64,000 nt of DNA from Sulfuricystis multivorans. Its GTDB lineage: Bacteria > Pseudomonadota > Gammaproteobacteria > Burkholderiales > Rhodocyclaceae. The position numbers and the translations under genes were made by a program. Below are positions 1 to 64,000 of the stretch, piece by piece. Below the pieces are notes generated by a model. The model was not told the DNA's origin, searched no databases, and worked only from the letters and a program-made list of their open reading frames with translations. Numbering within the stretch: the stretch's first letter is position 1; every line of letters begins with the position of its first letter. The stretch is taken from contig NZ_AP018718.1 of NCBI RefSeq assembly GCF_003966565.1, forward strand, positions 1,736,001 to 1,800,000, written 5' to 3'.

Positions 1-741
1 GCGGGCTTGGCCTGCGGCGGCATGAAACCGGTGGTGGCCATCTACTCGACCTTCCTGCAGCGCGCTTACGACCAACTGATCCACGATGTCGCGCTGCAGA
101 ATCTCGATGTCACCTTCGCGATCGACCGCGGCGGCATCGTCGGCGCCGACGGGGCCACCCATCAGGGCGCCTTCGACCTTTCGTATCTCACCTGCATCCC
201 GAACATGGTCGTGATGGCGCCGGCCGACGAGGCCGAATGCCGGCGCATGTTGACCACGGCCTACCACTACCCGGGTCCCGCGGCGGTGCGCTATCCGCGC
301 GGCGCCGGACCTGCCGTTCCGCCTGCGCCGACTTTGGACGCCATCGAAATCGGCAAGGGCGAACTGCGCCGCCAGGGCAAGAAGGTGGCGATCCTCGCTT
401 TCGGTACCCTGCTTTCCGCCGCCCTGGAAGCCGGCGAGGCGCTCGATGCGACCGTGGCCAACATGCGCTTCGTCAAGCCGCTCGATACCGATCTGGTGCG
501 GCAACTCGCCGAGGGCCATGACGCGCTGGTCACCGTCGAGGAAAATGCAGTCATCGGCGGCGCCGGCGCGGAAGTCGCCCGAGTGCTCGAAAATGAGGGG
601 CAAACGAAGCCTCTGCTGCGCCTCGGGCTGCCGGATCGTTTCATCGAACATGGCGAGCAAGGCCAGATGCTCGCCGAACTGGGCCTGAACGCAGCGGCGA
701 TGGCCGAGCGGATCAGGCATTTCCTTACCACCTTTACTTGA
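1..741 (+). CDS. dxs: 1-deoxy-D-xylulose-5-phosphate synthase, C-terminal part (5' end outside window)
   Basis: This is the first enzyme of the non-mevalonate isoprenoid pathway; it joins pyruvate and glyceraldehyde 3-phosphate using thiamine diphosphate. About 246 codons are visible, roughly the last 40% of a usual 620-residue DXS. The open frame runs in from base 1. The pyrimidine-binding transketolase region is recognisable ([17 protein letters not shown], then [18 protein letters not shown]), followed by the transketolase C-terminal domain ([13 protein letters not shown]). A copy of the 24-bp dispersed repeat lies in the linker between the two domains and encodes AVPPAPTL. Identification is firm; only the N-terminus is missing. 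Confidence 0.97.
312..335. repeat. 24-bp dispersed repeat, copy 1 (inside dxs)
   Basis: On the minus strand it reads AAAGTCGGCGCAGGC followed by GGAACGGCA. On the coding strand it gives AVPPAPTL in the DXS interdomain linker. See the finding on the repeat family. Confidence 0.8.
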
Positions 742-768
742 GGAAATTAGTCGGGAATGTTATAAAGG

Positions 769-800
769 GCTCCAAAAGGAGCGCCTGGCAAAGACCAGGC
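769..800 (+). terminator. two adjacent short hairpins in the dxs-folE2 gap
   Basis: GCTCC-AAAA-GGAGC (769-782) is followed directly by GCCTGG-CAAAGA-CCAGGC (783-800). Neither has a T-tract, so termination of dxs is only a guess; they could equally be leader structure for folE2. Confidence 0.3.
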
Positions 801-828
801 CACACGCCAACCCCACGGAGACATTCCC

Positions 829-2367: not shown

Positions 2368-2373
2368 GTTGCA

Positions 2374-2407
2374 AACGAAAAAGGACGCCAAGGCGTCCTT
2401 TTTCGTT
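2374..2407. terminator. bidirectional rho-independent terminator between folE2 and rplS
   Basis: A perfect 16-bp stem, with arms AACGAAAAAGGACGCC and GGCGTCCTTTTTCGTT around a two-base AA. A-tracts on one side and T-tracts on the other let it end both converging transcripts. Confidence 0.92.
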
Positions 2408-2421
2408 GCCGGTGGCGAGGT

Positions 2422-2799
2422 TCATTCCTTGGACTCGCCACCCTTCCTGGTAAGCTTCTCCTTGATCCGCGCCGACTTGCCGGAGCGCTCGCGCAAGTAA
2501 TAGAGCTTGGCACGACGCACGTCGCCCTTCCTCTTCACCTCGATGCTCGCGATCAACGGCGAATAGGTCTGGAAGGTGCGTTCGACGCCTTCGCCGGATG
2601 AAATCTTGCGCACGGTGAAGCTCGAATTCAGGCCGCGATTCCTCTTGGCGATCACCACGCCTTCATAGGCCTGGACGCGCTTTCTTTCGCCTTCCACCAC
2701 ATTCACGTTCACCACCACGGTGTCGCCGGGAGCGAACTCGGGAATGGTCTTGCCCAGCCGTTCGATTTCCTCTTTTTCCAGTTGCTGAATCAGGTTCAT
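2422..2799 (-). CDS. rplS: 50S ribosomal protein L19
   Basis: A structural protein of the large ribosomal subunit at the 30S-50S interface. It has 125 residues, a little longer than the E. coli protein, with a lysine-rich tail. The start was set at [11 protein letters not shown]; the open frame extends further upstream but that part has no family similarity. Conserved segments are [27 protein letters not shown] and [15 protein letters not shown]. It is the last gene of the conserved rpsP-rimM-trmD-rplS operon and ends at a bidirectional terminator. Confidence 0.98.
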
Positions 2800-2821
2800 G
2801 TCGTATTTCCTTGTCGAAATA

Positions 2822-4444: not shown

Positions 4445-5320
4445 TTATTGGTTATTTACGGCCGAGACAAGGGGAACGGAAACCACCGACTGCGGCTTGC
4501 GGCCGCCGCTTACCCGCACGATGCCAGCGAGATCCTGCCGCTGTTCGATGGCTTCGAAACCGGCAGCGCTCAAAAGATCCCGCGCGGCATCCCCCTGATC
4601 CCAGCCGTGCTCGAAAAACAGCCCGCCGCCCTCGGCTAGCCAGCGCGGAGCCTCGGCGACGACCCGACGGATCGCGCTCAAGCCATCGGCATGGTCGGTC
4701 AGCGCGACGACGGGCTCGAAACGCAGGTCGCCTTGCGTCAGATGCGGATCACTCGCGGCGACGTAGGGTGGATTGGCGACGATCAGATCGAAGCTTTGCG
4801 GCGGCAACGAGGCAAACCAGTCACTCTCGAAAAAACCAACTTCTGCGTCGAGCCGCGCAGCGTTCCTGCGCGCGACGGCCAGCGCCGCCGCTGAGACATC
4901 GACCGCCGACACCTGCACACCTGGCAGCTCCAGCGCCAGCGTGATCGCCAGACAGCCGCTGCCGGTGCCCAGATCGAGGATGCGTGCCGTACCACCCGAG
5001 CCGACTTTGCCGCCCAACGTTTCCAGGGCGAGATCGACCAGCAACTCGGTTTCCGGGCGCGGGATCAACACCTCGGGCGTCACGATGAAGTCGCGGCCAT
5101 AGAACTCGCGCCGGCCGATCAGATAGGCGGTCGGCTCGCCGGCCGCGCGGCGTTCCACCAACGTTTGGAAGCGCAGGGCGGCATGCTCGGCGAGCGGCTC
5201 GTCGCAGTGGGCTTCGAGCCAAGCGGTATTGCGGTCGAGCACGTGCGCGAGCAGCACGCGCGCCTCGCCGGCGGGCAAGATCTTCCGCGCCGCGGCAAGC
5301 AGGGCGGCGACCGTCCTCAT
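4445..5320 (-). CDS. prmC: peptide chain release factor N5-glutamine methyltransferase
   Basis: It methylates the GGQ glutamine of RF1 and RF2. It has 291 residues: an N-terminal helical domain, then a Rossmann methyltransferase with motif [14 protein letters not shown] (about 114-126) and the catalytic NPPY (183-186). The ATG overlaps the prfA stop by four bases, so the enzyme is co-expressed with its substrate RF1. A copy of the 24-bp repeat encodes KVGSGGTA at 105-112, in the linker just before motif I. The C-terminal tail after [10 protein letters not shown] is longer than usual. Confidence 0.97.
4985..5008. repeat. 24-bp dispersed repeat, copy 2 (inside prmC)
   Basis: In coding orientation AAAGTCGGCTCGGG followed by TGGTACGGCA. 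It encodes KVGSGGTA in a linker. Confidence 0.75.
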
Positions 5321-12317: not shown

Positions 12318-12860
12318 ATGGATGCCCGCAGCATCGAGGTCTTGCAGCGCGACAGCGGCTATCTGCGGCTGCGCCTGCCGGCCGCCTGCCGTAGTGCTCA
12401 GGTCGGCGCGATGCTCGAAAGCGGCCTGTCCGTGCTTGCCGGCATCGAGCGCATCACCTGGCTGACGGTCGAGGGCAAGCTGGCGATCCGTTTCGATCCA
12501 CAGCGCCTCACCCATGCCGAAATCGCCCGCCGCATCAAGATGCTCGTCGCCGATCTGCCCGAGACTGCGCCGGCTGCCGTGGCGGCTGCGGAACCCGCGC
12601 CCGGGCTCGCCGAACGCCTCGGCGACCTGCGCGAGCGGCTGATCGCCGCCGCACCGGCGCGTTTCCGTCCGCTCGTCGAGACTGCGACGACCGAGAAGGC
12701 GCTCACCAACTTTGCGAACGACATCGTCGCCTTCTACCTGATCAAGGTGCATTGGGACTTGATCGTCAATCGCTGGATCAAGGATCCGGTCAAATACGCG
12801 AATGCCTGGCTGACGGTGTTCTATCTCGTCTTCCTGCTGGTCCGCTACCGCAAGACGTGA
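12318..12860 (+). CDS. HMA-like domain protein with C-terminal membrane segment
   Basis: It has 180 residues. The first 80 resemble a heavy-metal-associated fold without the CxxC ([21 protein letters not shown], then [23 protein letters not shown]). A hydrophobic segment lies near the C-terminus (about 157-175). The next gene starts with GTG inside its stop codon. It is probably a partner or detached domain of the downstream ATPase, whose own first N-terminal domain is likewise a degenerate HMA. Confidence 0.65.
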
Positions 12861-15298
12861 AGCATTTCCGCATCGTCCATCGGCTGCCCTGGCGCCTGCG
12901 CCTGATCGCCCCGCCGCTCGTCAAGAACCCGGAACGCTGCTACCTGGTGGAAATCCTGCTGCGCAAGCACGCGGCGATTCGCCAGGTGCGCTGCGTGCAG
13001 GAGATCGGCTCGCTGACGATTCAATACGACGCGGCGCTGTTACCCGAACCCCGCCTCGTCGCACTCGTCGATGCGGTGATCGGCAACCTCGTCGCCGCGC
13101 CGGCCAGGCGTGCCGTCTTGGAGCCGCCGACTTTGGCCGTCGATCCGACCCAACCCGTTCAGGAATGTCTCGCCGCCGTGGAGGGCATGACCTGCGCCTC
13201 CTGCGCGGCGCTCATCGAGCTCTCGCTCAAGCGCGATCCGCGTATCGAGCTCGCCGCCGTCAATTACGCCGCTGAGACCGTGACGGTGAAAGGCCGCATC
13301 ACGAAAGAGGAGCTCTTCGCCGCCATAAGGAAGCTCGGCTATGCCGCCCGGCCAATGGATACGCTGGCGCAGCGGCGGCTGCTCGTCGAGCGCGAGAAGG
13401 AACGTTTGACCACCGCCAAGCGCAAGCTGCTTTACGCCGCCATCGCCACTGTGCCGGTGATGCTCTCCGGCATGGCGATGCACCGCTTGCTGCCGCTGCG
13501 TGTTCTCGAGCTCGCGCTATCGACCTACGTGCTCGCCGGCCCCGGCGGTGAGATCTTCAAAAAGGCCTGGGCACTTGCCAAAGAGCGCGAGGCGAACATG
13601 GACACGCTGATCGCGCTAGGCGCCGGCGCAGCTTATCTCTACAGCCTGCCGGGCGTCTTCTCGGCGCAGCATCATGTCTATTTCGAATCGGCGGCGGCGA
13701 TCGTCAGCTTCGTGCTCGGCGGTCGCTACATGGAAGAGCGCGCGAAAGGCAAGGCGTCGGAAGCGATCCGCAAGCTGATCGAGCTGCAGCCCAACACCGC
13801 GATCCGGGTGACCGACGCCGGCGACGCCGTGGTGAGCATCGATGACGTGAAAGTCGGCGATGTGCTGCGCGTGCGCCCCGGCGACAAGGTGCCGACCGAT
13901 GGCCTCGTCAGCGAGGGTTCCGGCAGCGTCGATGAGTCGCTCGTCAGCGGCGAGCCGCTGCCGGTGAGCAAGCGTGCCGGCGATCCGGTGGTCGGCGGCA
14001 CGTTGAACGTCGCCGGCAGCTTCACGCTGCGCGTCACCGCCACCGGCACGGACACCGTGCTCGCCGGCATCGTCCGGCTCGTCGATCATGCGCAAGGCAG
14101 CAAGCTGCCGGTGCAAAAGCTCGCCGACCGCATCTCGGCGCGCTTCGTGCCGGCCGTCGGCATGATCGCCGGCGCCACTTTCCTCGGCTGGCTCGCCGCT
14201 GGCCATCCGCTGGCGCGGGCGCTCTCGCACGCCGTCGCGGTGCTCCTGATCGCCTGTCCCTGTGCGCTGGGGCTCGCCACGCCGACCGCGATCATGGTCG
14301 GCATGGGCGAAGCGGCGCGGCGCGGTATCTATATCCGCAACGGCGAGGCGCTGGAGACGGCCGCCACGCTCGACACACTGGTGTTCGACAAGACCGGCAC
14401 GATCACGGCGGGCCATCCCGTCGTCACCGACTTTCTACCCGCCGCCGACATCGACGCCAGCCGGCTGCTCGCCCTCGTCGCCGGCGCCGAGCAGCGTTCC
14501 GAACACTTCCTCGCCCGCGCACTCGGCGCTTATTGCCAGGCGCGTGCCGTGTCGCCAGCGCCGACGGTCGACTTCGTCGCCACCCCCGGCCTCGGCGTCA
14601 TGGCAAAGAGCGAGTCAGGCACGATCCGCATCGGCAATGCCGCTTTCCTGGAGGCCGCAGGCATCGACTGCGCGGCCTTTGCCGCGCAGGCCGACGCTTT
14701 TGCCGCCCAAGGCAAGACGCCGGTGTTCGTCGCCCTCGATGAGACTTGCGTGGCGCTATTCGCGATCGCCGACACGCCGCGCGAAGGAGCGAAAGCGGCG
14801 ATCGCGCTGCTTCACCGCTTAGGGCTCAGAACGATCATGGCGACCGGGGATGTCGAGGCAGCCGCACGCCATGTCGCCCGGGAAGTGGGCATCGATGAGG
14901 TGATGGCGCGCGCGACGCCCGCCGACAAGCTCGCCCTCGTCGAACGACTCGAATCGGAAGGCCGCAAGGTCGGCATGATCGGCGACGGCATCAACGACGC
15001 GCCGGCGCTCGCGGCGGCGGCGGTCGGTTTTGCGATCGGCGGCGGTGCCGACATCACGGTGGAAGCCGCCGACGTGACGATCCTGGGCGGCGACATCGCC
15101 CGCCTCGCCGCTGCCATCGAGCTCTCGCGCCGCACGATGGCCATCGTGCGCCAGAATCTCTTCTGGGCGCTCGGTTACAACCTCGTCGCCATCCCCGTCG
15201 CGGCGGCCGGGCGTTTGAACCCGATGATCGCCGCCGCTGCGATGGCGATGAGCTCGGTTTCGGTGGTCACCAACTCGCTGCGCTTGCAGCGGAAATAG
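12857..15298 (+). CDS. P1B-type heavy-metal (probably copper) transporting ATPase
   Basis: It exports monovalent metal from the cytoplasm using ATP; 813 residues from the GTG at 12857. Domains in order: a degenerate HMA-like stretch (about 1-75), a canonical HMA with GMTCASC (110-116), the transmembrane metal site CPC (467-469, [12 protein letters not shown]), the phosphorylation site DKTGT (511-515), then [10 protein letters not shown] near the C-terminus. The CPC motif and N-terminal CxxC point to Cu(I) or Ag(I). It is the eighth gene of a tightly overlapping string. A 24-bp repeat copy lies in the linker between the two HMA regions. Confidence 0.92.
13111..13134. repeat. 24-bp dispersed repeat, copy 3 (inside the P1B ATPase gene)
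   Basis: Minus strand AAAGTCGGCGGCTCC followed by AAGACGGCA. On the coding strand it gives AVLEPPTL in the inter-HMA linker, the same frame as copy 1. Confidence 0.75.
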
Positions 15299-16922: not shown

Positions 16923-16958
16923 ACCGTCGTGAAACCGGCGCTGGCAGGGCGGCATGGC

Positions 16959-22019: not shown

Positions 22020-22043
22020 AAAGTCGGCGCCGGCGGGACGGCA
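22020..22043. repeat. 24-bp dispersed repeat, copy 4 (just after the exbD stop)
   Basis: Plus strand AAAGTCGGCGCCGGC followed by GGGACGGCA, beginning two bases after the exbD stop codon. Intergenic. Confidence 0.8.
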
Positions 22044-22836: not shown

Positions 22837-23916
22837 CTATGCGCCGAATTTCACCGTGACGCTCAACCCCCTGCCCTCCAAGCCCTCGCCCATTTCGAGC
22901 CGAGCATGGTGCAGCTCGGCGATGCGTGCGACGATCGACAAGCCCAGCCCACAGCCTTCGATGTCCTGACCGGCCAGACGATGCAGGCGGCGCAGCGCTT
23001 GCGCGTGTTGATCCGCTGGAATGCCCGGCCCATCATCGGCGACGCGAAGCTCGATTTGTCCACCCCGTGCCGCCACGCCAACGCCGACTTTGCCGCCTGC
23101 GGGTGTGTAACGGATCGCGTTGTCGAGCAGGTTTCTGAGCAGCACGCGCAGCATCGCATCGACGCCGGTGAGCGTCACCGCCTGCGGCGCATCGAGGGTG
23201 AGCGCGATGTTCTTCTCCAGCGCCGCCGCGCCATGCTCGGCGCAGACTTCGGCGGCGAGCCGATCGAGGCGCAATTCACTCATCGGCAGATCGGCCGCCG
23301 GATCGAGCCGCGCCAGCGTCAGGAGCTGCTCGACCAAGTGGCGCGCCCGTTGCGCGCCGGTGACCAACTGCGCGAGGGCATGATCGCGCTCGGCCGCATC
23401 ACGGGCGCGCGCAGCCACCTGCGCCTGCGTGACGATTGCGGCGAGCGGCGTGCGCAGCTCGTGGGCGGCATCACTCGTGAAGCGCCGCTCGGCCTCGAGC
23501 GAGTTGGCCAGACGCGCGAACAGATCATTGATCGCATCGATGAGCGGGCGGATCTCGCCCGGCGCCGCCTCGGGCGCGAGCGGATCGAGCCGGTCCGGCG
23601 TGCGGCAGGCGACCTCGGCGGCGATCTGGTCGAGCGGGCGAAAACCGTGGCGGGTGGCAAACCAGATCCATGCGCCGAGGATCGGCAGGCCAAACAGCAA
23701 CGGCGTGAGCATCGTTTTCAGCAGATGCTCGGCGAGCTCCTCGTGCACATGTCGTTCGAGGCGCTTGTCGTCATGACCGCGCTTTTCGAGCATTTCCAGC
23801 ACCTCTTCGCGCGTCTCGACATAGGCAAAACCAACCGCTCCCAGCCAGCCGGCGGTGACGCCAGCGAGCAGCCAGGTGAGCAGACGGCGACGCAGCGAAA
23901 ACCAGCGTGTGTTCAT
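22837..23916 (-). CDS. sensor histidine kinase, QseC/PmrB-like
   Basis: It has 359 residues. Two membrane segments (about 10-32 and 68-88) flank a short, charged periplasmic loop of only about 35 residues, so the sensor domain is much smaller than in QseC. The phosphorylated histidine is H152 (FTSDAAHELRTPLAAI). The N-box LLRNLLDNAIRYTP and G-boxes DDGPGIP and GCGLGLSIV follow. It overlaps its response regulator. A 24-bp repeat copy encodes KVGVGVAA between the N-box and the first G-box. Confidence 0.93.
   Translation of the reverse strand: MNTRWFSLRRRLLTWLLAGVTAGWLGAVGFAYVETREEVLEMLEKRGHDDKRLERHVHEELAEHLLKTMLTPLLFGLPILGAWIWFATRHGFRPLDQIAAEVACRTPDRLDPLAPEAAPGEIRPLIDAINDLFARLANSLEAERRFTSDAAHELRTPLAAIVTQAQVAARARDAAERDHALAQLVTGAQRARHLVEQLLTLARLDPAADLPMSELRLDRLAAEVCAEHGAAALEKNIALTLDAPQAVTLTGVDAMLRVLLRNLLDNAIRYTPAGGKVGVGVAARGGQIELRVADDGPGIPADQHAQALRRLHRLAGQDIEGCGLGLSIVARIAELHHARLEMGEGLEGRGLSVTVKFGA
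23068..23091. repeat. 24-bp dispersed repeat, copy 5 (inside the histidine kinase gene)
   Basis: Coding orientation AAAGTCGGCGTTGGC followed by GTGGCGGCA, encoding KVGVGVAA. Confidence 0.7.
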
Positions 23917-25185: not shown

Positions 25186-25683
25186 TCAATCTCCTTCCCA
25201 GCGGCGGCCGCTCGGCATCACGATCTCGCGTTCGCGGTAACTGCCTTGCGCGGCTTGGGTGTGGCAGGCGGCGCAGTTGGCCGGCGTCTTCACCTTGGGG
25301 TGGGCCCAGTCGCGGCGCGACACCTCGCGGTGCTTGCGCTCGAACCAGGGCGTGGCAGTGAGCCGCGGCAGCGCGCTAGCGGATGCCGTCTTGCGAGCGC
25401 CGACTTTCGACGGGCTGCCGGCATTGCGGATGAGGAAGCCTTCGATGGCGCGCCGCGTCGGCTCATCGAGGCTGGCGTTGTCGCCGTAGTGTTTGTCGAG
25501 GCTCGCCATCACGCGCCGCCAATCGTCGGCAGTCAGAAGCCGAGGCGGATAAGCGACATGGCAGCTCGCGCATTCGGCCTGATAGGCCGGCGGCGCATCG
25601 GCGGGCAGACCATGCTTGTCGGCCAGCGCCGTGGCAGAGAGCGAGACGAGCACGATGCCGATGAAGAAATTTTTTATTTTCAT
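25186..25683 (-). CDS. diheme cytochrome c (DHC)
   Basis: A periplasmic 165-residue protein with a signal peptide ending at ATALA and two heme-binding motifs, CASCH (38-42) and CAACH (137-141). It is the presumed redox partner of SHP. The start MKIKNFF was chosen because the signal peptide begins there; its ATG overlaps the SHP stop. A 24-bp repeat copy encodes KVGARKTA (93-100) between the two heme regions. Confidence 0.92.
   Translation of the reverse strand: MKIKNFFIGIVLVSLSATALADKHGLPADAPPAYQAECASCHVAYPPRLLTADDWRRVMASLDKHYGDNASLDEPTRRAIEGFLIRNAGSPSKVGARKTASASALPRLTATPWFERKHREVSRRDWAHPKVKTPANCAACHTQAAQGSYREREIVMPSGRRWEGD
25384..25407. repeat. 24-bp dispersed repeat, copy 6 (inside the DHC gene)
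   Basis: Coding orientation AAAGTCGGCGCTCGC followed by AAGACGGCA, encoding KVGARKTA. Confidence 0.75.
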
Positions 25684-29366: not shown

Positions 29367-30989
29367 TCAGCTCCACTCGTCGGGATAGTGTGATGTTATC
29401 GGATAGCGCCAATCCTTGCCGAAGGCGCGCCTTGTTACGCGCACGCCCGGCGGCGCCTGGCGGCGCTTGTATTCGTTCTTCTTCAGCAGCATGATCACCC
29501 GCCGCACATCGGCTTCCGGGATGCCCTGCGCGATGATCTCGCGCGGCGAAAGGTCGCGCTCCATGTAGGCTTCGATGATCGCGTCGAGTATCTCGTAAGG
29601 AGGCAGGGAATCCTGGTCGGTTTGATTGGCCTTGAGCTCGGCCGAAGGCGCACGCGTGATGATGTTGTGCGGGATCACTTCGGAGCGGGCATTGCGGTAG
29701 TGCGCCAGGCGATAGACGAAGGTCTTGAAGACATCCTTGAGCACCGCGAAGCCGCCGGCCATGTCGCCGTAGAGCGTCGCGTAGCCGACCGCCATCTCGC
29801 TCTTGTTGCCGGTGGTGAGAAGGATGCATCCGGTGCGGTTCGAGATCGCCATCAGCAAAAGCCCGCGGATGCGCGCCTGGATGTTTTCCTCGGTGGTGTC
29901 CCAGGCGGGCTTCGCTCCCAGCGGCGCGAACACCGGCGCGAGCAGGGTGGAGAATTGCTCCATCGCGGTGGCGATCGGAATCTCGTCATACTGCACACCC
30001 AGGCGGTGCGCCATCTCGCGCGCATCGGTCAGGCTCATCTGCGCGGTATAGGGCGAAGGCATCATCACTGCGCGCACCTTGTCCGCGCCCAGCGCATCGA
30101 CGGCGATGGCCAAGGTGAGTGCCGAATCGATGCCGCCGGAAAGACCGATGATCGCGCCGGGGAAACCGTTCTTGCCGAGATAGTCGCGCACCCCAAGACA
30201 CAGCGCGGAATACACCGAGGCCTCGAGCGACGAGGGGGGGGCCAGCAGGCCCGGCAGCAAATGGCCATCGGCATATTCGACGATCGCCAGCGCCTCTTCG
30301 AACGCGGGCAACTGGTGGGTGAGCCGCCCTTGCGCATCGAGCGCGAAGGACGCGCCATCGAACACCAGCTCGTCCTGGCCGCCCACCAGATTACAGTAGA
30401 TCGCCGGTATGCCGGTGCCGGCGATGCGGCTGCGCAGCACCGCCTGGCGGGTCGCCGCCTTGTTCATGTGGAAAGGCGAGGCGTTCAACGCCAGCAACAG
30501 CTCGGCGCCGGCCGCGCGGGTCGCCTCGACCGTGCCCGGCAGCCAGATGTCCTCACAGATCGCCAGGCCGATATTCGCTTCGCCGAGCGAAAACACGCAT
30601 GGGGCAGTACCGGCGGCGAAATAGCGTTCCTCGTCGAATACCTCGCTGTTGGGCAGGCGCTGCTTGTGGTAGGTCAGCTCGACGCGCCCCTCGCGCAGCA
30701 ATGAGGCGGCATTGAAGCGCAGTCCGCCGCGCATCTCGGGATGACCGACGACGGCCGGCAGCGGCAGCCGTGCCGCCAGCGCCGACAATTCGCGCGCGCA
30801 GGCACGATGGAAATCCGGCCGCAGCAGCAGATCCTCGGGCGGATAGCCGGCGAGCGCCAGTTCGGGCGTCAGCAAAAGATCGGCGCCCTGGGCATGCGCC
30901 TCATCGGCGGCCGCCAGGATGCGGGCGGCATTGCCGGCTAGGTCGCCGACCGTGCAGTCGATCTGCGCGACGGCTATTTTGAGGCTCAT
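29367..30989 (-). CDS. nadE: glutamine-dependent NAD+ synthetase
   Basis: It makes NAD+ from deamido-NAD+ with glutamine as amide donor. It has 540 residues: an N-terminal nitrilase-type glutaminase (E at LLTPELALAGYPPEDLLLR; K at VELTYHKQRLPN; C at GLAICEDIW) and a C-terminal synthetase with the PP-loop GLSGGIDSALTLAIA and NRTGCILLTTGNKSEMAVGY. It sits between ppa and glnB. Confidence 0.98.
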   Translation of the reverse strand: MSLKIAVAQIDCTVGDLAGNAARILAAADEAHAQGADLLLTPELALAGYPPEDLLLRPDFHRACARELSALAARLPLPAVVGHPEMRGGLRFNAASLLREGRVELTYHKQRLPNSEVFDEERYFAAGTAPCVFSLGEANIGLAICEDIWLPGTVEATRAAGAELLLALNASPFHMNKAATRQAVLRSRIAGTGIPAIYCNLVGGQDELVFDGASFALDAQGRLTHQLPAFEEALAIVEYADGHLLPGLLAPPSSLEASVYSALCLGVRDYLGKNGFPGAIIGLSGGIDSALTLAIAVDALGADKVRAVMMPSPYTAQMSLTDAREMAHRLGVQYDEIPIATAMEQFSTLLAPVFAPLGAKPAWDTTEENIQARIRGLLLMAISNRTGCILLTTGNKSEMAVGYATLYGDMAGGFAVLKDVFKTFVYRLAHYRNARSEVIPHNIITRAPSAELKANQTDQDSLPPYEILDAIIEAYMERDLSPREIIAQGIPEADVRRVIMLLKKNEYKRRQAPPGVRVTRRAFGKDWRYPITSHYPDEWS

Positions 30990-34652: not shown

Positions 34653-34676
34653 TGCCGTCCTGTCAGCGCCGACTTC
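34653..34676. repeat. 24-bp dispersed repeat, copy 8 (hemN to DsbD_2-like gap)
   Basis: Minus strand GAAGTCGGCGCTGAC followed by AGGACGGCA; one mismatch at the first base. It fills most of the 41-bp gap between the two genes. Confidence 0.75.
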
Positions 34677-41032: not shown

Positions 41033-41056
41033 TGCCGTCCCGAAGCCGCCGACTTT
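41033..41056. repeat. 24-bp dispersed repeat, copy 9 (phaC to NPD gap)
   Basis: Minus strand AAAGTCGGCGGCTTC followed by GGGACGGCA. A partial copy (AGTCGGCGCTGGCGG) at 41093-41108 abuts the phaC stop codon, so two repeat copies lie within 75 bp. Confidence 0.8.
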
Positions 41057-41108
41057 TCGAGGCGGGCCGGCGCCCGGCGGGCGTTCCATTTTCCGCCAGC
41101 GCCGACTG

Positions 41109-42842
41109 TCAGCATTCGAGCACGTAGGTTCCCGGCGCATCGGCGAGCGCCGGATGCGCGCGGCTGGCCACCGGCCCCGGCTTGACGAGCGCTCCGGAAT
41201 GCACCCGCAGCCAGGTGACCCAATCCTGCCACCAGCTGCCCGGCTGCGCTTCGGCCCGTTCCTGCCAGACATCGGGATTGTCGTGCCGTTCGGCGGCGCC
41301 GACACGGTATTCGCGCTTGGGCGGATGCACGGGCGGATTGACGATGCCGAGGATGTGACCCGAGCTCGACAGGACGAAACGCTTCGGCCCGGAAACATAA
41401 TTCATGAGGCGGTAAGCCTGCCGCCAGGGAGCGATGTGATCGTCCGCTGCCGCGACCGCATACACCGGCTGAACGATGCGCGTCAGGTCGAGCGGCTGGC
41501 CAGCGAGTGTCAGAGCATCCTTTTTGATCAGCTGGTTGTCGAGGTAGAGGTTGCGCAGATACCAGGCGTGCATCCTGGCCGGCATGCGCGTCGTGTCCAT
41601 GTTCCAGTAGAGCACGTCGAAGGGCGGCGGCGTCTCGCCATACAGATAGCCATGCACGACGTAATGCCAGATCAGGCTGTTCGAGCGCAGCAGGCGAAAT
41701 GCCGCGGCCATCTCCTTGCCGTCGAGATAGCCTCTGGCCTCCATTTTCGCGACCAGATAGCGGTAACTGCCCTCGTCGAGAAACACCTCGATGTCGCCCG
41801 GCTTGTGGAAATCGACCAGCGTGGTAAAGAACGTCGCACAACCCACCGGCACATCCTGTGGCGCGTATTTGCGATTCGCCCAGGCGAGATAGATCGCCAG
41901 CGCGGTGCCGCCGATGCAGTAACCGACGGCGTTGACCCTGTCGGACTTCGAGATGCCGCGCATCGTCCCGATCGCAGCCTCGATGCCCTCGGTGAGGTAA
42001 TCGTCGAAGCCCACGTCCGCCATGGTCTCGTCCGGGTTCCTCCAGCTCGTGATATAGACGTCGAAGCCCTGGTCGAGCAGAAACTTGACCAGGCTCTTCT
42101 TGGGCGTGAGATCGAGGATGTAGAACTTGTTGATCCACGGCGTGACGATCAGAAGCGGCACCCGGTGCACCTGGGTGGCGGTCGGCGCATAGTGGATCAG
42201 CTCGACGAGCCGGTTGCGCATCACCACCTTGCCGGGGGTCGTGGCGAGATTGACACCGACCTTGAAATCGTCCGGCCGCGTCATGCGAATCTCGCCGGCC
42301 TGCCAGTCGGCGATGAAATTCGCCCAACCGCGCCAAAGGCTCTCGCCGTGACTTTCGACAGCCTTGCGCATCGCCACCGGATTGGTGAGCAGGAAATTCG
42401 TCGGCGCCATCGCGTTGAGCCACTTGCGCCACCAGAAAGCGGCGCGCCGCCGCTCGCGGCTGGGCAGCCCCGGCGTCTGATAAAGCATGTCCTGGATCTG
42501 GTGGGTGAAGGCAAGGTACCACTCCTTCGTCAGATCCCAGGTTGCCGACTCGGTCCAAACCGGATCGGCGAAGCGGTTGTCGTCCGGATGCGGCAGCTCG
42601 ACGTCCTCTCCTGGCAATCCCAGCATGCGCTGCCAGGAATGCTGCTGCAATTCGACCATGCGGGCATAGAAGCCTGCCGTCGTTTCGGCCAGCTCCTGCG
42701 GGTGTGTCAGCCATGCCCACTGCGCATTGGATAGCGGCATCACCATGCCAAGCGGATCGATGCTCGTCTGCGCAGCCTGGCGCAAGACCTGAAAAACCTG
42801 TTGGGGCGTAACCGTGACTCCCAGTGCTCTGTTCGTTGCCAT
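41109..42842 (-). CDS. phaC: class I poly(3-hydroxyalkanoate) synthase
   Basis: It polymerises (R)-3-hydroxyacyl-CoA into storage polyester. It has 577 residues, typical of class I. The lipase-like box is GYCIGG with the nucleophile C309, followed by catalytic Asp in VAAADDHIAPW and His in SSSGHILGI. FADPVWTESATW and NKFYILDLTPKKSLVKF are conserved. It is divergent from uspA. Confidence 0.97.
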   Translation of the reverse strand: MATNRALGVTVTPQQVFQVLRQAAQTSIDPLGMVMPLSNAQWAWLTHPQELAETTAGFYARMVELQQHSWQRMLGLPGEDVELPHPDDNRFADPVWTESATWDLTKEWYLAFTHQIQDMLYQTPGLPSRERRRAAFWWRKWLNAMAPTNFLLTNPVAMRKAVESHGESLWRGWANFIADWQAGEIRMTRPDDFKVGVNLATTPGKVVMRNRLVELIHYAPTATQVHRVPLLIVTPWINKFYILDLTPKKSLVKFLLDQGFDVYITSWRNPDETMADVGFDDYLTEGIEAAIGTMRGISKSDRVNAVGYCIGGTALAIYLAWANRKYAPQDVPVGCATFFTTLVDFHKPGDIEVFLDEGSYRYLVAKMEARGYLDGKEMAAAFRLLRSNSLIWHYVVHGYLYGETPPPFDVLYWNMDTTRMPARMHAWYLRNLYLDNQLIKKDALTLAGQPLDLTRIVQPVYAVAAADDHIAPWRQAYRLMNYVSGPKRFVLSSSGHILGIVNPPVHPPKREYRVGAAERHDNPDVWQERAEAQPGSWWQDWVTWLRVHSGALVKPGPVASRAHPALADAPGTYVLEC

Positions 42843-49990: not shown

Positions 49991-50200
49991 TCACTTACTT
50001 TGATCTGGATCAACAGATGGCGATGTCGTCTGTGGGGTTTTCGGGGAATCCTCGCGCGGCGTATCGTCGTCCATCAGCACCCGGTAGGCCGGGCCTTCGA
50101 GATCGTCCAGCTGACCGCTTCTCAGCGACCACCAGAACACCACGCCGATCGCGAAGACCAGCAATACGGAGACGGGGATCAGGAGATAGAGGCTTTCCAT
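49991..50200 (-). CDS. ccoS: CcoS-type cbb3 oxidase maturation protein
   Basis: It has 69 residues: MESLYLLIPVSVLLVFAIG gives the single span, then WWSLRSGQLDDLEGPAYRVL and a charged C-terminus. CcoS is needed for cofactor insertion into cbb3 oxidase. Its start overlaps the end of ccoI by 22 bases. Its last codons coincide with a fourth FNR-like palindrome (TTGATCTGGATCAA, 50000-50013). Confidence 0.93.
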   Translation of the reverse strand: MESLYLLIPVSVLLVFAIGVVFWWSLRSGQLDDLEGPAYRVLMDDDTPREDSPKTPQTTSPSVDPDQSK

Positions 50201-52650
50201 GCCACGCCTTTCTGCAGCCGCAAGGCATTCATGACCACGAGCAGCGAGCTGGCCGACATGCCGATGCCGGCCATCCACGGCGTCACCCAGCCGGTCATCG
50301 CCAGCGGGATCGCTACCAGATTATAGGCAAAGGCCCAAGCGAGGTTCTGACGGATGATCCGCAAGGTTTGTCGCGCCAGCGCAATGCCATCGGCGAGATG
50401 GCCAAGATCGTCGGAAAGCAGCACCACGTCGGCCTGACTGCGCGCGAGATCCGTGCCGCCGCCCATCGCCACCGAGACGTGCGCCTGCGCCAGCACCGGC
50501 GCGTCATTGACGCCATCGCCGACCATCGCCACGGTGGCGCCGCTGTGCTGGATCTCACGCACTGCGGCGTGTTTTGCCTCCGGGGTCATCCCACCGCGGT
50601 AATCCTCGACGCCGAGCGCGCACGCCACCGCCGCCACCGTCTCGGGCGCATCGCCGGAAAGGATGGTCAGTTTCGCGCCCGTCGCCGCGATGCGCGACAG
50701 CGCTTCGCGCACGCCTGGCCGCAAGCCATCGCTGATGCGAAACCAGGCGCGATCCCCACGATCGTCGCCCAATGCGATCACCGTATCGCCGCCCGCCCGC
50801 CAGCCGACGACGTCCTCCGGTAACGGCCGTCCATGCAATTCGGCGACGAAGGCCGGCACGCCGATGCGCACTGCCCTGCCCTCGGCATCCCGGGCCTCGA
50901 TCCCCTTGCCGGTCACGGCGCGCAGCTGCGCAAGTGTCGCCGTCTCACCAGCGCCGACTTTCTCACACAGCGCCTTGGCCAGCGGATGTTCCGATGCCTG
51001 CTCCAGCGCCCTTACCTGCGCGAACACCTCGGTCTCGCTCAACCCCTCGGCCAAGCGCAGATCGACCACCGTCGGCCGCCCCAAGGTGAGTGTGCCCGTC
51101 TTGTCGAAAATCCAGTGATCGGCGCGCGAGAGCGTCTCGATCGCATGACCGCGCGTGACCAGCACGCCTGCCTTCGCCAGCGCGCCGGTGGCCACGGTCA
51201 GCGCCGCGGGCGTAGCGAGCGAAAGCGCGCACGGGCAGCTGACCACCAGCACCGCGACGCAGATCCACAAGGCATTGGCCGGATCGACGTTGAACCAGTA
51301 AATGCCGGTCGCCAGCGCCAGTGCCAACAGTGCCCAGACGAAACGCTGCGCGATGCGATCCGCCGTCTGCACCAGGGTCGGTTTTTCCGCCGCGGCCTGC
51401 TCCATCAGCCGGCGGATCGACGCGAGTCTCGTCGCCTCGCCGACCCGTTCGAGCCGGATCGTCAGGGGGCTGCCGACATTGACGCTGCCGCCCGTCACCG
51501 CATCCCCGATGCCCTTGGTCACCGGGCGGCTCTCACCGGTGAGCAGCGATTCGTCGGCGCTGCTTTCGCCATCGACGACGATGCCATCGCCGGGGATCGT
51601 CTCGCCGGGCTTGACGCGCACCACATCGCCGACGGTCAGATGCGCGACCGCGACGCGCTCGGCATCAACGGCCGGCCAATGGGGCAGCCGCTCGGCGAAC
51701 GCCGGAATCGCGCGCGCCAGCGCCTCGATCCCGCGGGTGGCCTTCTGTCGCGCCATCATCTCCAGATAGCGTCCGGTGAGCAGGAAGAACACGAACATCG
51801 TCACCGAATCGAAATACACCTCGCCCGAAGCCGTGAGCGTCGCCCAGACGCTGGCGAGAAACGCGCTGCCGACGCCGAGGGCCACCGGCACGTCCATGCC
51901 GACGCGGCGGAACTTCAAATCGCGCCAGGCGCTGGTGAAGAACGGCGCCGCCGAATAGCCGATCACCGGCACGGTGAGCAGAAAACTCGCCCAGCGCATC
52001 AGTTGCGCGATGTCCAAGGGCATGTCGCCGCTCTCGCCGATGTCCGCCAAATACATCGGTACCGCATACATCATCACCTGCATCATGCCGAAACCGGCGA
52101 CGAACAGCCGCCACTGCGCGCTGCGCCGTTCCTTTTTCGCCAGTTGCTCGGACTTCGTCGCATCGTATGGATGCGCGCGATAGCCGATCGCCTGGATCGC
52201 CTCGAGCAGCGCGGAGAGCTTGGTCACGCGCTCGTCCCAGCGCACCCGCGCGCGCCGCGTCGCATAGTTGATGTCCACGGCGGTCACACCCGGCTGTTTC
52301 GAAAGATGCGCCTCGTTGAGCCAAACGCAGGCCGCGCAGGTGATGCCTTCGAGGATCAGGCTCGCCTCGCGCTCGTGCGCGCCGATCGGCCGCACGAAAT
52401 TCTTCTGCACCTCGGGATGGTCGAAGAGCCCCAGCTCCTGCAAGGCGGCGGGCAACGCCTCGCGCGGGCTTTCCGGCAGCGCGTCGCGGTGCTTGTAGTA
52501 ATCGGTCAGTCCGTTGGCGACGATCGCCTGCGCCACGGCCTGGCAGCCGGCGCAGCACATCTGGCGCGGCACGCCATCGATCTCGACCGTGAAATCGACG
52601 CCCGGCGGCACCGGCAGGCCGCAGTGATAGCAGTCGTGTTCGCTGGCCAA
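50179..52650 (-). CDS. ccoI: CcoI/FixI copper-transporting P1B ATPase
   Basis: It supplies copper for cbb3 oxidase. It has 823 residues. An N-terminal metal-binding domain has CYHCGLPVP and RQMCCAGCQAV; an HMA has GITCAACVWLN (about 100). The membrane site is SCPCALSLATPAAL, followed by DKTGTLTLG, TGESRPV and GDGVNDAPVLAQAHV. A 24-bp repeat copy encodes KVGAGETA in the nucleotide domain. It is followed by ccoS and then the ccoN promoter. Confidence 0.96.
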   Translation of the reverse strand: MASEHDCYHCGLPVPPGVDFTVEIDGVPRQMCCAGCQAVAQAIVANGLTDYYKHRDALPESPREALPAALQELGLFDHPEVQKNFVRPIGAHEREASLILEGITCAACVWLNEAHLSKQPGVTAVDINYATRRARVRWDERVTKLSALLEAIQAIGYRAHPYDATKSEQLAKKERRSAQWRLFVAGFGMMQVMMYAVPMYLADIGESGDMPLDIAQLMRWASFLLTVPVIGYSAAPFFTSAWRDLKFRRVGMDVPVALGVGSAFLASVWATLTASGEVYFDSVTMFVFFLLTGRYLEMMARQKATRGIEALARAIPAFAERLPHWPAVDAERVAVAHLTVGDVVRVKPGETIPGDGIVVDGESSADESLLTGESRPVTKGIGDAVTGGSVNVGSPLTIRLERVGEATRLASIRRLMEQAAAEKPTLVQTADRIAQRFVWALLALALATGIYWFNVDPANALWICVAVLVVSCPCALSLATPAALTVATGALAKAGVLVTRGHAIETLSRADHWIFDKTGTLTLGRPTVVDLRLAEGLSETEVFAQVRALEQASEHPLAKALCEKVGAGETATLAQLRAVTGKGIEARDAEGRAVRIGVPAFVAELHGRPLPEDVVGWRAGGDTVIALGDDRGDRAWFRISDGLRPGVREALSRIAATGAKLTILSGDAPETVAAVACALGVEDYRGGMTPEAKHAAVREIQHSGATVAMVGDGVNDAPVLAQAHVSVAMGGGTDLARSQADVVLLSDDLGHLADGIALARQTLRIIRQNLAWAFAYNLVAIPLAMTGWVTPWMAGIGMSASSLLVVMNALRLQKGVAWKASIS
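50938..50961. repeat. 24-bp dispersed repeat, copy 10 (inside ccoI)
   Basis: Coding orientation AAAGTCGGCGCTGGT followed by GAGACGGCG, encoding KVGAGETA, identical at protein level to the cusB copy. Confidence 0.8.
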
Positions 52651-54205: not shown

Positions 54206-55021
54206 TCAGCCATCCCGCAACATCGCCAGCACCGGCGCCGTCTCGGGCCGCACGCCGCGCCAGAGGAAGAACGACTCGGCCGCCTGCTCGACCAGCATCC
54301 CCAGTCCATCGGCGACGCAGGATGCGCCCAACCCTCGCGCCTGGATCATGAACGGCGTCTCGCTGGGGCCATAGACCATGTCGTACGCCAGGGCGTCGGG
54401 GGCGAACAGCCCCTGCGGCAGCGGGAGCTGCGCCCCGCCCAGGCCGGCCGAGGTCGCATTGATCACGACGTCGAAGGCCCCACCCGCGAAAGCGTCGAAG
54501 CCGCCGGCCTCGATCCGCCCGTAGGATGCAAAACGTTCGCGCAGCTCGCAAGCCTTCTCGACGCTGCGGTTGGCGACCGCCAAGAGCGCCGGCGAGCGTT
54601 CCAAGAGCGCCGGAATCACTCCCCGTGCCGCCCCGCCAGCGCCGAGAATCAGCACCCGCCGGCCGGCAAGATGCACGCCCAGCCGCTCTTCCAGATCGCG
54701 CACCAGCCCGATGCCGTCGGTGTTGTCGGCGAAGATGCCGTCCGCATCGAAGCGCAGCGTATTCGCCGCGCCGGCCAGCCGAGCCCGCTCGGTCGGTTTG
54801 TCGGCCAAGGCCAGCGCCTCCAGCTTGAATGGCACCGTGACGTTTGCGCCGCGCCCGCCGGCGGCGCGGAACGCCGATACCGTGGCCGCGAAGTCCTCCA
54901 GCGGCGCGAGGATCGCCTCGTAGGACACGTCCTGCCCGGTCTGCCGTGCGAAAGCGGCGTGGATCAGCGGCGATTTCGAATGGGCGATCGGGTTGCCGAT
55001 CACCGCGTAACGGTCGGTCAT
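54206..55021 (-). CDS. aroE: shikimate dehydrogenase
   Basis: It reduces 3-dehydroshikimate with NADPH in the aromatic pathway. It has 271 residues: [20 protein letters not shown], then [11 protein letters not shown] with the catalytic lysine, [12 protein letters not shown] and the nucleotide motif [12 protein letters not shown]. It overlaps the Uma2 gene by four bases. Confidence 0.97.
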
Positions 55022-58563: not shown

Positions 58564-58587
58564 CGCCGTCCTGCCAGCCCCGACTTT
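58564..58587. repeat. 24-bp dispersed repeat, copy 11 (between Met-rich and YHS genes)
   Basis: Minus strand AAAGTCGGGGCTGGC followed by AGGACGGCG. Intergenic. Confidence 0.75.
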
Positions 58588-60573: not shown

Positions 60574-63500
60574 TCAGAAGCTGTCCCGGCCATGCTCGGC
60601 GAGCAGTCGCTTGAGCGGCTTCTCGCCCCAGAGCCAGAACATCAGCGGCGTCAGCACGGTGTCGAGCAGGGTGGAGCTCACCAGGCCGCCAAAGATGACG
60701 ACGGCGACCGGATGCAGCACCTCCTTGCCCGGCGCATCGGCCGCGAGCAGCAGGGGCAGCAGCGCGAAGGCCGCGACCAGCGCGGTCATCAATACCGGCG
60801 TCAGGCGTTCGAGCGAGCCGCGCACGATCATGTGCTGGCCGAAGCTCTCGCCCTCGAAGGCGCACAGGTTGATGTAGTGACTGATCTTGAGAATGCCGTT
60901 GCGCGTGGCGATGCCGGTCAAGGTAATGAATCCCACCAGCGCGGCGACCGACAGCGGCTGGCCGGAAATCCACAGCGCGATCACGCTCCCCACCAGGGCC
61001 AGGGGAATGTTGCCCATGATGATGAAAGTCAGCGTCGCCGAACGGTAGCGGCTGTAGAGCACCATGAAGATCATCGTCAGCGAAATCAGGGCCAGCAGGG
61101 TGATCAGCCGGGCTGCCTGCTCCTGCGCCTGGAACTGGCCCTCGAGCGCCGTGAAGTAGCCTTCCGGCAGCGGGTTGGCTGCCAGTTCGGCGCGAATGTC
61201 GGCGATCACCTGCGCCATGTCCCGGCCGTTGGTATTGGCTGAAAGCACGATGCGCCGGCGCGAGTTCTCGCGGCTGATCTGATTGGGCCCGTCGCTCTCC
61301 TCGACGCGGGCGATCTTTGACAGCGGCACGAAGCCGTTGGGCGTTTCGATCATCAAGTTCGCCAGCGCCTGCGGCCCGCGGGCGTCTTCCGGCAGGCGCA
61401 CCAGCAGGTCGAAGCGGCGGTTGCCCTCGACGATCTGGGTGATGCGCTCGCCCGCGACCATCTGTTCCAGGCTGCGCAGCAGATTGCCCGGCGCGACGCC
61501 GTAACGTGCAGCCTCGGTATAGTCGAGATGGATCTTGATCTGCGGGATCAGCACCTGCTTCTCGATTTGCAGATCGGTGATGCCGGGAATCTTCGCCAGC
61601 CGTTCCCGCAAGCCACCCGCCAGACCGCGCAGGGTGTCCAGGTCGTCGCCGTAGATCTTCAGGGCGATCTGAGCGCGCACGCCGGAGAGCAGATGATCGA
61701 GACGGTGCGAGATCGGCTGGCCGACGCTGGAGACGGCCGGCAGGGTGGCCAGGCGGCTACGGATGTCGGCGATGACGGCCTCACGGCTGCGCTCCGACGT
61801 CTTGAGGTCGACTTCCATCTCGGTGTAATGCACGCCTTCGGCGTGTTCGTCCAGTTCGGCGCGACCGGTGCGCCGGCCGACCTGGGTCACCTCGGGCACC
61901 TGCAGGACGAGTTCCTCGGCCAGGGTGCCGATGCGATTCGATTCGGCCAGCGAGGTGCCGGGATTGAGCAGCACGTTCACGGTAAGCGTGCCTTCGTTGA
62001 ACGGGGGCAGGAAGGAGCGCGAAAAGAACGGCACGCTGGCGCCGACCAGCAGGACCGCGACCAGCGCGACGGCCAGCAGGGTGCGCGCATGGGCGAACGA
62101 CCAGTGCAGCAGGCGCGCGTCCTGACGCTTGAGCCAGATCACCAGCGGGCTATCGCCCGCGTGCAGCTGCTTCATCCGGGGCAGCAGGTAATAGGCCATC
62201 ACCGGGGTCAGCGTCACCGAGACGATCATGCTGGCGAGGATCGAAACGATGTAGGCGACGCCCAGCGGCGTAAACAACCGACCCTCGATGCCGGGCAGCA
62301 CGAACAGCGGCACGAATACCAGGACGATGATCACCGTCGCATAGACGATCGCGGAGCGCACTTCCAGCGTCGCCGCTGCGATCACCTCGATCACCGGCCG
62401 TGGCGAAGATCCGGCTCGATTGATCTTGAGGCGGCGCAACACGTTCTCGACGCCGACCACCGCATCGTCGACCAGTTCACCGATGGCGATCGCCAGCCCG
62501 CCCAGCGTCATGGTGTTGATCGACAGGCCGAAGTAACGGAACACCAAGGCCGTTACCAGCAGGGAGACGGGAATCGCCATCAGCGAGATCACCGTGGTCC
62601 GCACGTTGAGCAGGAACAGGAAGAGGATCACCGCGACCATCAACGCACCGTCGCGCAAGGCCTCCTCGACGTTGGTCACCGAGTGCTCGATGAAATCGGC
62701 CTGTTTGAACAGGAAGGCGGGCGCGGCCACGCCCGGCGGCCGGCTCTTCGCCAGTTCGTCCACCGCCTTCTCGACCTCGCGGGTCAGGGTCACGCTGTCG
62801 GCAGACGGTTGCTTCTGCACCGACAGGATCACGGCCGGCTTGCCCTGGTAGCTACCGTCGCCGCGCTTGATGGCGGACGCGAGGCGAACATCGGCCAGCT
62901 GCTTGAGCAGCACCGGCTGACCGTTCTTGACGGCCACGACCAAGTTTTGCAGGTCCTCGATGCGACTGGTGCGGCCGATGGCGCGGATGAGGAATTCGCG
63001 CCCCTGCGCTTCGAGAAAGCCACCGCTGGTGTTGGCGCCGAAATCGCGTAGCGCCGCGTCGAGCTTCTCGCGCTCGATGCCGAGGGCTTGCAATTGGGCC
63101 GGCTTCGGCTCGACGCGATATTGCCTGACCTCGCCGCCGATCGGGATCACCTGGGCGATACCCGGAATGGTCAACAGACGCGGCCGCATCACCCAGTCGG
63201 CATACTCGCGCACCGCCATCGGACTGGCCCTGTCCGGGCCGGCAGCGGTATCGATAGGCAGGGCGATCAGCAGGATTTCGCCCATGATCGATGAGATCGG
63301 CCCCATTTGCGGAACAATGCCCGGCGGCAACTGTTCGCGCACCAGATTGAGCCGTTCGGAGATCTGCTGACGGTTGCGGTAGATGTCGGAACCCCACTCG
63401 AACTCGACATACACAACCGACAAGCCGATGCCGGAGACCGAGCGCACACGGGTAACTCCCGGCATGCCGTTCATGGCCGATTCGATCGGGAAGGTGACGA

Positions 63501-63690
63501 GCTGTTCGACCTCTTCCGGCGCCATGCCGCCGGCTTCGGTCATCAGGGTCACCGTCGGTTTGTTCAGGTCGGGAAAGACATCGACCGGTACCTGGCGCAG
63601 GGTCAGCGCGCCGTAGATCATCAGCAGCAGCGCGACGCCCAGCACCAAGAGTCGCTGCTTAAGGCAGGCGCGAATGATGAAATCGAACAT
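60574..63690 (-). CDS. cusA: RND efflux transporter CusA/CzcA family
   Basis: The inner-membrane proton-driven pump of a tripartite metal exporter; 1038 residues. Twelve spans flank two large periplasmic loops. Signatures: [24 protein letters not shown] at the N-terminus, and [26 protein letters not shown] with the essential acidic residues in TM4. The length and DD in TM4 fit heavy-metal efflux; Cu/Ag is preferred from the neighbours but Zn/Co/Cd cannot be excluded. The start lies two bases from cusB. Confidence 0.93.
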
Positions 63691-63692
63691 GA

Positions 63693-64000
63693 TTAGCGCA
63701 CCTGAGACAGCAGGCTGGCGCCCTCGGTGACCACGCGGTCGCCGTCATGCAGGCCGTCGATCACGGCCACGTTGGCCGCATCCAGCGGCTGGGTGCGCAC
63801 CTTGCGCGCGATGAAGCGCTCGGCTTCGGCATGCACCCAGACTGCCGTCTCGCCAGCGCCGACTTTTACCATGGCCTGCAGCGGCACGGCCTCGCCCTTG
63901 ATTCCCTGCGCGGTACGCACCACGACCTTGACCGGTTGTCCCACGGCGATGGAAGCATTCGGCTCGATGATGCGAAACAGCAGGGGCAGCGCCTGCTCGC
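63693..64000 (-). CDS. cusB: RND efflux membrane-fusion protein, C-terminal part (continues beyond window)
   Basis: The frame enters from base 64000. Visible residues ([20 protein letters not shown], then [20 protein letters not shown] and [18 protein letters not shown]) are the beta-barrel and membrane-proximal parts of CusB/CzcB adaptors. A 24-bp repeat copy encodes KVGAGETA where most relatives have a short variable turn. Confidence 0.9.
63843..63866. repeat. 24-bp dispersed repeat, copy 12 (inside cusB)
   Basis: Coding orientation AAAGTCGGCGCTGGC followed by GAGACGGCA, closest to the consensus; encodes KVGAGETA. Confidence 0.8.

Follow-up and report, generated by a model that had tools for sequence, protein, structure and literature searches.

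A 24-bp bipartite repeat in Rhodocyclaceae genomes is a candidate uptake sequence for natural transformation

Introduction

Sequence tags that mark DNA for uptake are used, according to a 2025 paper, by only two families known to do so, the Neisseriaceae and the Pasteurellaceae (PMC12616744). Another study describes the DNA uptake sequences (DUS) as over-represented, placed between genes and in permissive regions within them, and divided into lineage dialects that follow phylogeny (PMC3630211); the 2025 paper describes the uptake signal sequences (USS) as discontinuous, longer than their core and highly enriched, with dialect types and an extended form with AT-rich flanks (PMC12616744). Here we describe a dispersed 24-bp repeat found in a stretch of 64,000 nucleotides (hereafter the window) from the chromosome of Sulfuricystis multivorans (Rhodocyclaceae; assembly GCF_003966565.1, contig NZ_AP018718.1, positions 1,736,001 to 1,800,000). 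Comparison among genomes leads us to regard this repeat as a candidate, and probably a genuine, self-recognition uptake sequence for natural transformation, similar in kind to DUS and USS and unrelated to either in its core.

Results

Copy number and orientation on the chromosome

The motif is bipartite and reads AAAGTCGGC GCTGGC RRG ACGGCR over 24 bp. As a strict pattern we used AAAGTCGGC-N9-RCGGCR, with the reversed pattern as a control, and we counted as relaxed copies all sites with at most five mismatches. The window's own genome (G000) measures 2.81 Mb in three contigs: the main chromosome C1 (2.56 Mb, with the window at C1:1736001-1800000), C2 (149 kb) and C3 (103 kb). The initial annotation of the window had allowed that genome-wide counts might lie near expectation; what we found is 145 strict copies (75 forward, 70 reverse), all on C1, against 0 and 0 for the reversed control. 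C2 and C3, which together make up 252 kb, hold no strict copies where 14.3 would be expected, and an 80-kb sample of them held no relaxed copies. C3 has a gene of the TraI_2 family, and both contigs are presumably plasmids.

Strict copies follow one another in random orientation (72 of 144 neighbours agree, against a permutation mean of 71.6) and their spacing is Poisson-like, with a coefficient of variation of 1.02; no polarity along the chromosome was detected for them (arc excess p 0.32, the origin not having been located). Eleven of the 12 copies listed in the initial annotation lie on the minus strand, AAAGTCGG-like, and one (22020) on the plus strand; for strict copies this 11:1 bias is local to the window. 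Relaxed copies were counted in a non-random sample of 324 kb of chromosome, namely the window and 13 further stretches, of which nine represent gaps in the strict pattern and the other four were picked with knowledge of positions. This sample held 70 relaxed copies, which extrapolates to approximately 550, and these are split 48 minus to 22 plus (binomial p 0.003), or 34 to 20 without the window (p 0.08). The gaps in the strict pattern were considered as possible genomic islands, an interpretation rejected because eight of the nine gap stretches do contain relaxed copies, at 3-7 per 20 kb; the only empty one (L441) carries the genes for RNA polymerase beta and beta' and for EF-Tu (rpoB, rpoC, tuf).

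Within the window we found 16 relaxed copies (reversed control 0), and there are 11 occurrences of the 9-mer AAAGTCGGC, where 100 dinucleotide shuffles gave a mean of 0.53 and a maximum of 3, an excess that the initial annotation had correctly reported. The repeat itself had also been rightly recognized, with a consensus written one base short: the 23-letter form finds no match at 3 mismatches, and the corrected 24-bp unit is AAAGTCGGCGCTGGC-RRG-ACGGCR. Outside these 24 bp the sole flank preference is for A or G immediately 5'. On its own the motif does not fold stably (z 0.14 and 0.37), and Rfam at its gathering threshold gave no match within the window.

Distribution and spellings among the Rhodocyclaceae

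Of 249 genomes from the family, 27 have at least 80 strict copies, all of them within six genera (g1, g2, g9, g62, g70 and g88); among the remainder, one g1 genome has 64 copies and 221 genomes have 0-14, the control giving 0-2 per genome. In a first survey of the window's genus the motif was carried by 18 of 19 genomes (26 to 496 copies), and copy numbers of 0-5 were found in 24 genomes from the order's other families. The exact 24-mer is present in at least 120 stretches of named genomes; among the matches listed, most are from Rhodocyclaceae and include Sulfuritalea, Sulfurisoma, Rugosibacter and a metagenome-assembled genome (MAG) of Propionivibrio, and 11 of the 20 genomes counted from the matches listed have at least 99 copies. 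One of these 11, a MAG titled Burkholderiaceae (L093, JAIPCT010000022.1), has 332 strict copies; it may be misnamed, or it may belong outside the Rhodocyclaceae.

In motif-poor genomes several of the few exact copies are clustered, on single contigs or within one stretch (G096:C50, G097:C104, G171:C148, G123:C1:1461265-1502266), as if derived from carrier DNA or from mis-binning. Exact 24-mers are also found in 75 stretches of IMG/VR, phage genes and host flanks being pooled in this count; one contig filed there as viral (L371) has five exact copies between positions 883 and 2239, spaced by exactly 316 bp in three gaps out of four. As candidates for unrelated tags in motif-poor genera we followed up the strongest 9-mers of two genomes, G061 and G036, and rejected them, as they look like codon or protein-repeat effects; the follow-up covered these two genomes, and weaker tags are possible.

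Five spellings of the motif were observed across nine carrier genomes sampled, the 24-bp frame being constant throughout; samples of eight further genomes held no copies. The ending CGGCA prevails in G000 (9/13) and in its close relative G017 (24/29), CGGCG in G009 (5/7), G019 (7/9) and G064 (6/8), and CGGTG in G004 (8/9) and G087 (6/11), while the remaining two spellings concern the other end of the motif: 12 of 13 copies in G016 start with AAACTCGG, and all 13 in G028 start with AAAGTCAG. In a midpoint-rooted tree of PrmC and DXS, calculated with the motif columns removed, all non-carriers except G005 form one clade (support 0.93), canonical carriers fall into two groups, and G028 is placed with the non-carriers (support 0.65). 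G000 and G017 are sisters in this tree and share one spelling.

Substitution and length change in host proteins

Loop lengths were compared in three proteins. For DXS, 30 genomes were picked so as to include both carriers and non-carriers of the motif. The DXS loop, taken as the segment that separates YPRG from the following glycine motif, contains the 24-mer in 11 of the 30 genomes and is free of it in 19; it has 16 residues in seven of the 11 carriers and in 17 of the 19 non-carriers, the other carriers having 17 or 18. PrmC loops were measured in 24 of the genomes, and 5 of 14 carriers and 7 of 10 non-carriers have a loop of 15 residues. No loop longer by exactly 8 residues than the usual non-carrier length was seen among the DXS and PrmC loops examined. 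In IspH a loop with a single motif is 42-45 residues long, and a loop without the motif 40-43, except for 57 in G019. Judging from these sequences, the motif would at least partly overwrite what was there before, with frequent small changes of length, and no case resembles the 24-mer having been inserted whole. The initial annotation had suggested an element that inserts in frame: for the 24-mer this does not hold in DXS, the picture in PrmC is mixed, and a 54-bp derivative of the motif does behave in this way in a dihaem cytochrome (DHC) gene, as set out below. It had also raised the possibility that KVG-x-x-x-x-A is ancestral in each host family; in DXS and PrmC, the two families compared, non-carriers have other residues there.

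Six PrmC carrier loops are longer by 4 residues, a 12-bp step (L159, L160, L162, L165, L151 and L152), and gaps of 4 residues recur in pairs of orthologues.

Placement relative to genes and frames

Genes were called with a simple script that scores codons and had been trained on the window, at approximately 85% coding, and the loci from other genomes had been fetched because they bear the motif. These loci hold 241 copies, 153 in genes, 80 intergenic and 8 at gene edges; the corresponding numbers for G000 loci are 41, 9 and 2. All six frames are used by the 153 copies in genes, unequally: among 85 same-strand copies 68 are in frame 0 and 3 in frame 1, so the earlier statement that copies always sit in a tolerated frame stands as a bias and not as a rule. 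Since copies occur in all six frames and also between genes, it is the DNA rather than the protein that is conserved, as had been proposed; consistent with this, the DXS site of G016 is written in that genome's own spelling and encodes AASPAPSL in place of AVPPAPTL.

Between genes the copies are not evenly placed (both counts include overlapping loci). Gaps between divergent genes hold 23 intergenic copies against 35.3 expected, and in gaps between tandem genes the copies lie more often close to the upstream gene, with 34, 22, 17, 7 and 13 in successive fifths.

Palindromic units derived from the motif

In G000 and G017 the motif's left-hand 17 bp are also found joined to a stretch containing the inverted motif, making a unit of 54 bp which precedes a full motif and is sometimes in tandem; its consensus folds at -43.6 kcal/mol. 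Distinct units number 10 in the 464 kb of loci taken from G000 and 6, one of them poor, in 190 kb from G017; the other loci, 2738 kb in all, gave one clear copy, and the reversed control gave none. The DHC gene has a single motif in G000 and is exactly 54 bp longer, in frame, in G017, and the IspH loop of G000, which contains a unit of the 54-bp type, is 21 residues longer than those of G017 and G003. Sites of the unit, in frame in several genes, include L437:19312-19402, L358:15587, L295:2180, L340:11221 and positions 41033-41110 of the window.

Sulfurisoma-type genomes and G004 have a second, shorter hairpin of approximately 27 bp (CCCC..ACTTCC..GGGG), located within the motif or next to it. 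Of eight sites inspected by eye, seven are flanked by both halves of the motif and one by a single half; loci with this hairpin are L263, L264, L266, L053, L098, L217 and L218.

Pilins of the window's genome

The genome of S. multivorans gave 15 prepilin matches. Among them is a minor-pilin cluster, adjoining the gene read as ispH, with a pilin of the ComP_DUS family (PF16732), a GspH/FimT-like pilin and PilV. Pilin sequences compared by eye, with no co-variation test made, gave no feature dividing carriers from non-carriers.

Copies in the window

Every coordinate given for the 12 copies in the initial annotation is right, as is the division into eight copies within called genes and four between genes, and so are the peptides, six of the form KVGxxxxA in minus-strand genes and two, AVPPAPTL and AVLEPPTL, read from the opposite strand. 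Pfam supports the identity of PrmC, the histidine kinase, the dihaem cytochrome and the P-type ATPases, and CusB is without a Pfam match. The scan added four degenerate copies, at 14545, 16931, 30766 and 54626. Except at 16931 and 22020, all copies are on the minus strand.

The first copy (312-335) encodes AVPPAPTL within a transketolase-family gene (22-741, plus strand) read as DXS, and the second (4985-5008) encodes KVGSGGTA within prmC (4445-5320, minus strand). A P-type ATPase gene (12857-15298, plus strand) holds two: a variant with the centre GGCTCC at 13111-13134 (AVLEPPTL), at the equivalent place of which G017 has no motif, and a degenerate copy with 3 mismatches at 14545-14568, for which G017 has a perfect motif. 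The intergenic degenerate copy at 16931-16954 (plus strand) has 4 mismatches and its G017 counterpart has 1, and at 22020-22043 lies the sole plus-strand copy among the 12 listed, also intergenic. The histidine kinase gene (22837-23916, minus strand) contains the copy at 23068-23091 (KVGVGVAA), and the DHC gene (25186-25683, minus strand) the copy at 25384-25407 (KVGARKTA), the site at which the G017 version is extended. Further along are a degenerate copy with 4 mismatches at 30766-30789, in a gene at 29367-30989 (minus strand), a copy at 32622-32645 (KVGADGTA) in a P-type ATPase gene (31809-33983, minus strand), and two intergenic copies, at 34653-34676 and 58564-58587. The composite at 41033-41110 consists of a motif (41033-41056) and a degenerate 54-bp palindromic unit, with 11 mismatches within the 37-bp middle of that unit, and its outer end overlaps a called gene (41109-42746). 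A CcoI-type P-type ATPase gene with an ATPase-cat_bd domain (50179-52650, minus strand) holds the copy at 50938-50961 (KVGAGETA), and a gene at 54206-55021 (minus strand) the degenerate copy at 54626-54649 (4 mismatches; ILGAGGAA). The perfect motif at 63843-63866 (KVGAGETA) lies in a gene cut by the end of the window, which is named CusB by position, from an adjoining RND pump, its 101-aa piece being the one without a Pfam match.

Copies with a GGCTYC centre are few on C1 of G000 (for example 13111 and 41033 in the window) and nearly absent from relatives, and this centre may represent a spelling that is just emerging. The window also has a 145-bp tandem array at 1571-2367 (5.5 copies, 95% match), mostly between called genes, whose repeated part has a palindromic CCTCGC..GCGAGG segment; it has no Rfam match in the window.

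Discussion

Among the explanations offered in the initial annotation, that of an uptake signal fits best with the copy number, the balanced orientation, the in-place substitution in DXS, the preferred spellings that vary from genome to genome, the lack of copies on C2 and C3, the deficit in divergent gaps and the presence of ComEC and minor pilins, and also with the single clade of most non-carriers and the near lack of conserved flanks; the step to uptake itself rests on analysis of genomes, and we put it forward as a probable one. A surface receptor, most likely a putative type IV minor pilin, would bind AAAGTCGGC-GCTGGC-RRG-ACGGCR on DNA outside the cell, and DNA bearing the motif would be preferentially taken up and then recombined. 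Under such a bias near-matches at gene ends and in tolerant loops would become full motifs, for the most part by substitution, and the tag would rise in number wherever protein and promoter allow. A spelling would spread through its lineage, and a change in the preference of the receptor would convert sites to a new one. From the pattern of copies we infer that the site is read by a receptor and that biased uptake drives its spread.

Several observations weigh against the uptake sequence or leave it less secure. The ComEC family is present in all 30 genomes searched, motif-less genera included, and 10 of 14 control genomes have it as well. Pilins of the PF16732 family are present in all 35 genomes searched, with and without the motif, and in none of the 14 control genomes. 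As every genome searched has both, presence and absence could not be used to find the receptor, and no receptor is singled out, because both proteins also occur in motif-less genera. The other contigs have a G+C content of 0.55-0.57 (samples), lower than the chromosome, and since this reduces the chance of motifs the depletion on C2 and C3 is suggestive only. Spelling and phylogeny agree in part only, because the tree does not place G004 and G087 as sisters although both prefer CGGTG; and G005, filed in the window's genus, has no motif, a long branch in the tree and other residues at the PrmC and DXS sites. We did not see the motif clearly above its flanks in conservation between G000 and G017: starting from G000 copies, conservation is 0.856 in the motif and 0.838 in the flanks, and starting from G017 copies (one overlap counted twice) 0.847 and 0.787. 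G000 copies are more decayed than those of G017, which may reflect relaxed uptake or drift in this species. Nor is length change rare, because PrmC carriers are often longer (9 of 14: six with 19 residues and one each with 24, 36 and 40) and partners without the motif are often gapped; in a small and biased comparison of 50 pairs of orthologues from motif-selected loci, 38 have the motif in both, and 6 of the remaining 12 have a gap within the site, several of 4 residues, against a control gap rate of 0.05, which tells in part against substitution alone. Finally, close inverted pairs are common for DUS and USS, and with the strict pattern we found 2 among 509 places, overlaps and viral contigs included.

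The motif could instead be the site of a protein acting across the chromosome, in nucleoid organization, segregation or recombination, and be kept by selection on chromosome function. Two well-conserved ends would suit a DNA-binding protein with two domains, and the confinement of all 145 strict sites to the main chromosome, with none on the other contigs, and the 48 to 22 strand excess of the sampled relaxed copies would be in keeping with it; however, the strict copies lack polarity and are randomly spaced, spellings differ within one genus, and the patchy occurrence in 27 of 249 genomes is better fitted by a tag. Sites of the type of the FtsK-orienting polar sequences (KOPS) were rejected for the strict copies on the arc excess and the agreement of neighbours, despite the local bias in the window; KOPS are shorter than the 24-bp motif, and KOPS and macrodomain sites differ in polarity and spacing. 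Of the chromosome-organization idea in the initial annotation, then, the KOPS-like polarity is absent, and we keep the rest as an unlikely alternative.

A miniature mobile element inserting in frame within genes seems to us less likely again. The exact, in-frame 54-bp addition in the DHC gene of G017, the IspH loop of G000 with its 21 extra residues and 54-bp-type unit, the hairpins inside the motif in Sulfurisoma and G004, and the longer PrmC loops of most carriers are what such an element would leave; yet the replacement in DXS keeps the length, none of the DXS and PrmC loops examined has gained exactly 8 residues, the flanks are without conserved ends, the single motif does not fold, and beyond G000 and G017 the 54-bp unit is almost absent. 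That a conserved protein motif, KVGxGxTA, might carry the DNA along with it we consider a negligible prospect: 68 of the 85 same-strand copies at the loci of other genomes do share one frame, but the copies use six frames in unrelated host proteins, a third of them (80 of 241) are intergenic where only approximately 15% of the sequence is non-coding, the G016 spelling alters the residues of DXS, and intergenic and antisense copies contradict it directly.

Returning to the uptake sequence, we lean, with somewhat less assurance than for uptake as such, towards a fuller proposal: that the Rhodocyclaceae independently evolved an uptake-sequence system, the third of its kind, whose tag is bipartite, 24 bp long and written in at least five spellings, and that this tag is also a landing place for small palindromic units which add in-frame peptides in more than one lineage. 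Searches of the open-access literature (subscription papers and preprints lying outside their scope) brought up no report of the motif, of its peptides or of uptake sequences in Rhodocyclaceae. If the proposal is true, it would provide a third case of uptake tags, in free-living bacteria, with several spellings in one family and sister genera that lack the motif; it would offer a route to understanding how tag systems arise, change their spelling and are lost, and to finding the receptor by co-variation; and it would represent a force acting at the level of DNA that rewrites protein loops.

Compared with systems already described, the motif shares with KOPS, matS and parS its many short chromosomal sites, but its strict copies have no orientation bias along the chromosome and its spellings vary between relatives. 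Repetitive extragenic palindromic elements (REP/REPIN) and the Rickettsia palindromic elements resemble the 54-bp derivative, which is palindromic, folds and can be in frame; unlike REP/REPIN, the 24-mer does not fold, adds no length in DXS and has 153 of 241 copies in genes. The likeness to Neisseria raised in the initial annotation extends to TGCCGTC(T) at one end, which is shared with AT-DUS, and not to the remainder: the DUS 10-mer GCCGTCTGAA, in this spelling, is practically absent, with 0-1 per sample in 18 samples of 71-160 kb, and the USS core AAGTGCGGT is found in none of the 18. The motif is further set apart from DUS by being 24 bp long and bipartite, against approximately 9-13 nt, by belonging to another family and by its rare close inverted pairs, and from USS by being G+C-rich after its first bases, where the flanks of USS are AT-rich. 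What it has in common with the Neisseriaceae DUS is that it is over-represented, occurs both in and between genes and comes in several spellings, and with the Pasteurellaceae USS that it is discontinuous, highly enriched and likewise spelled in several ways.

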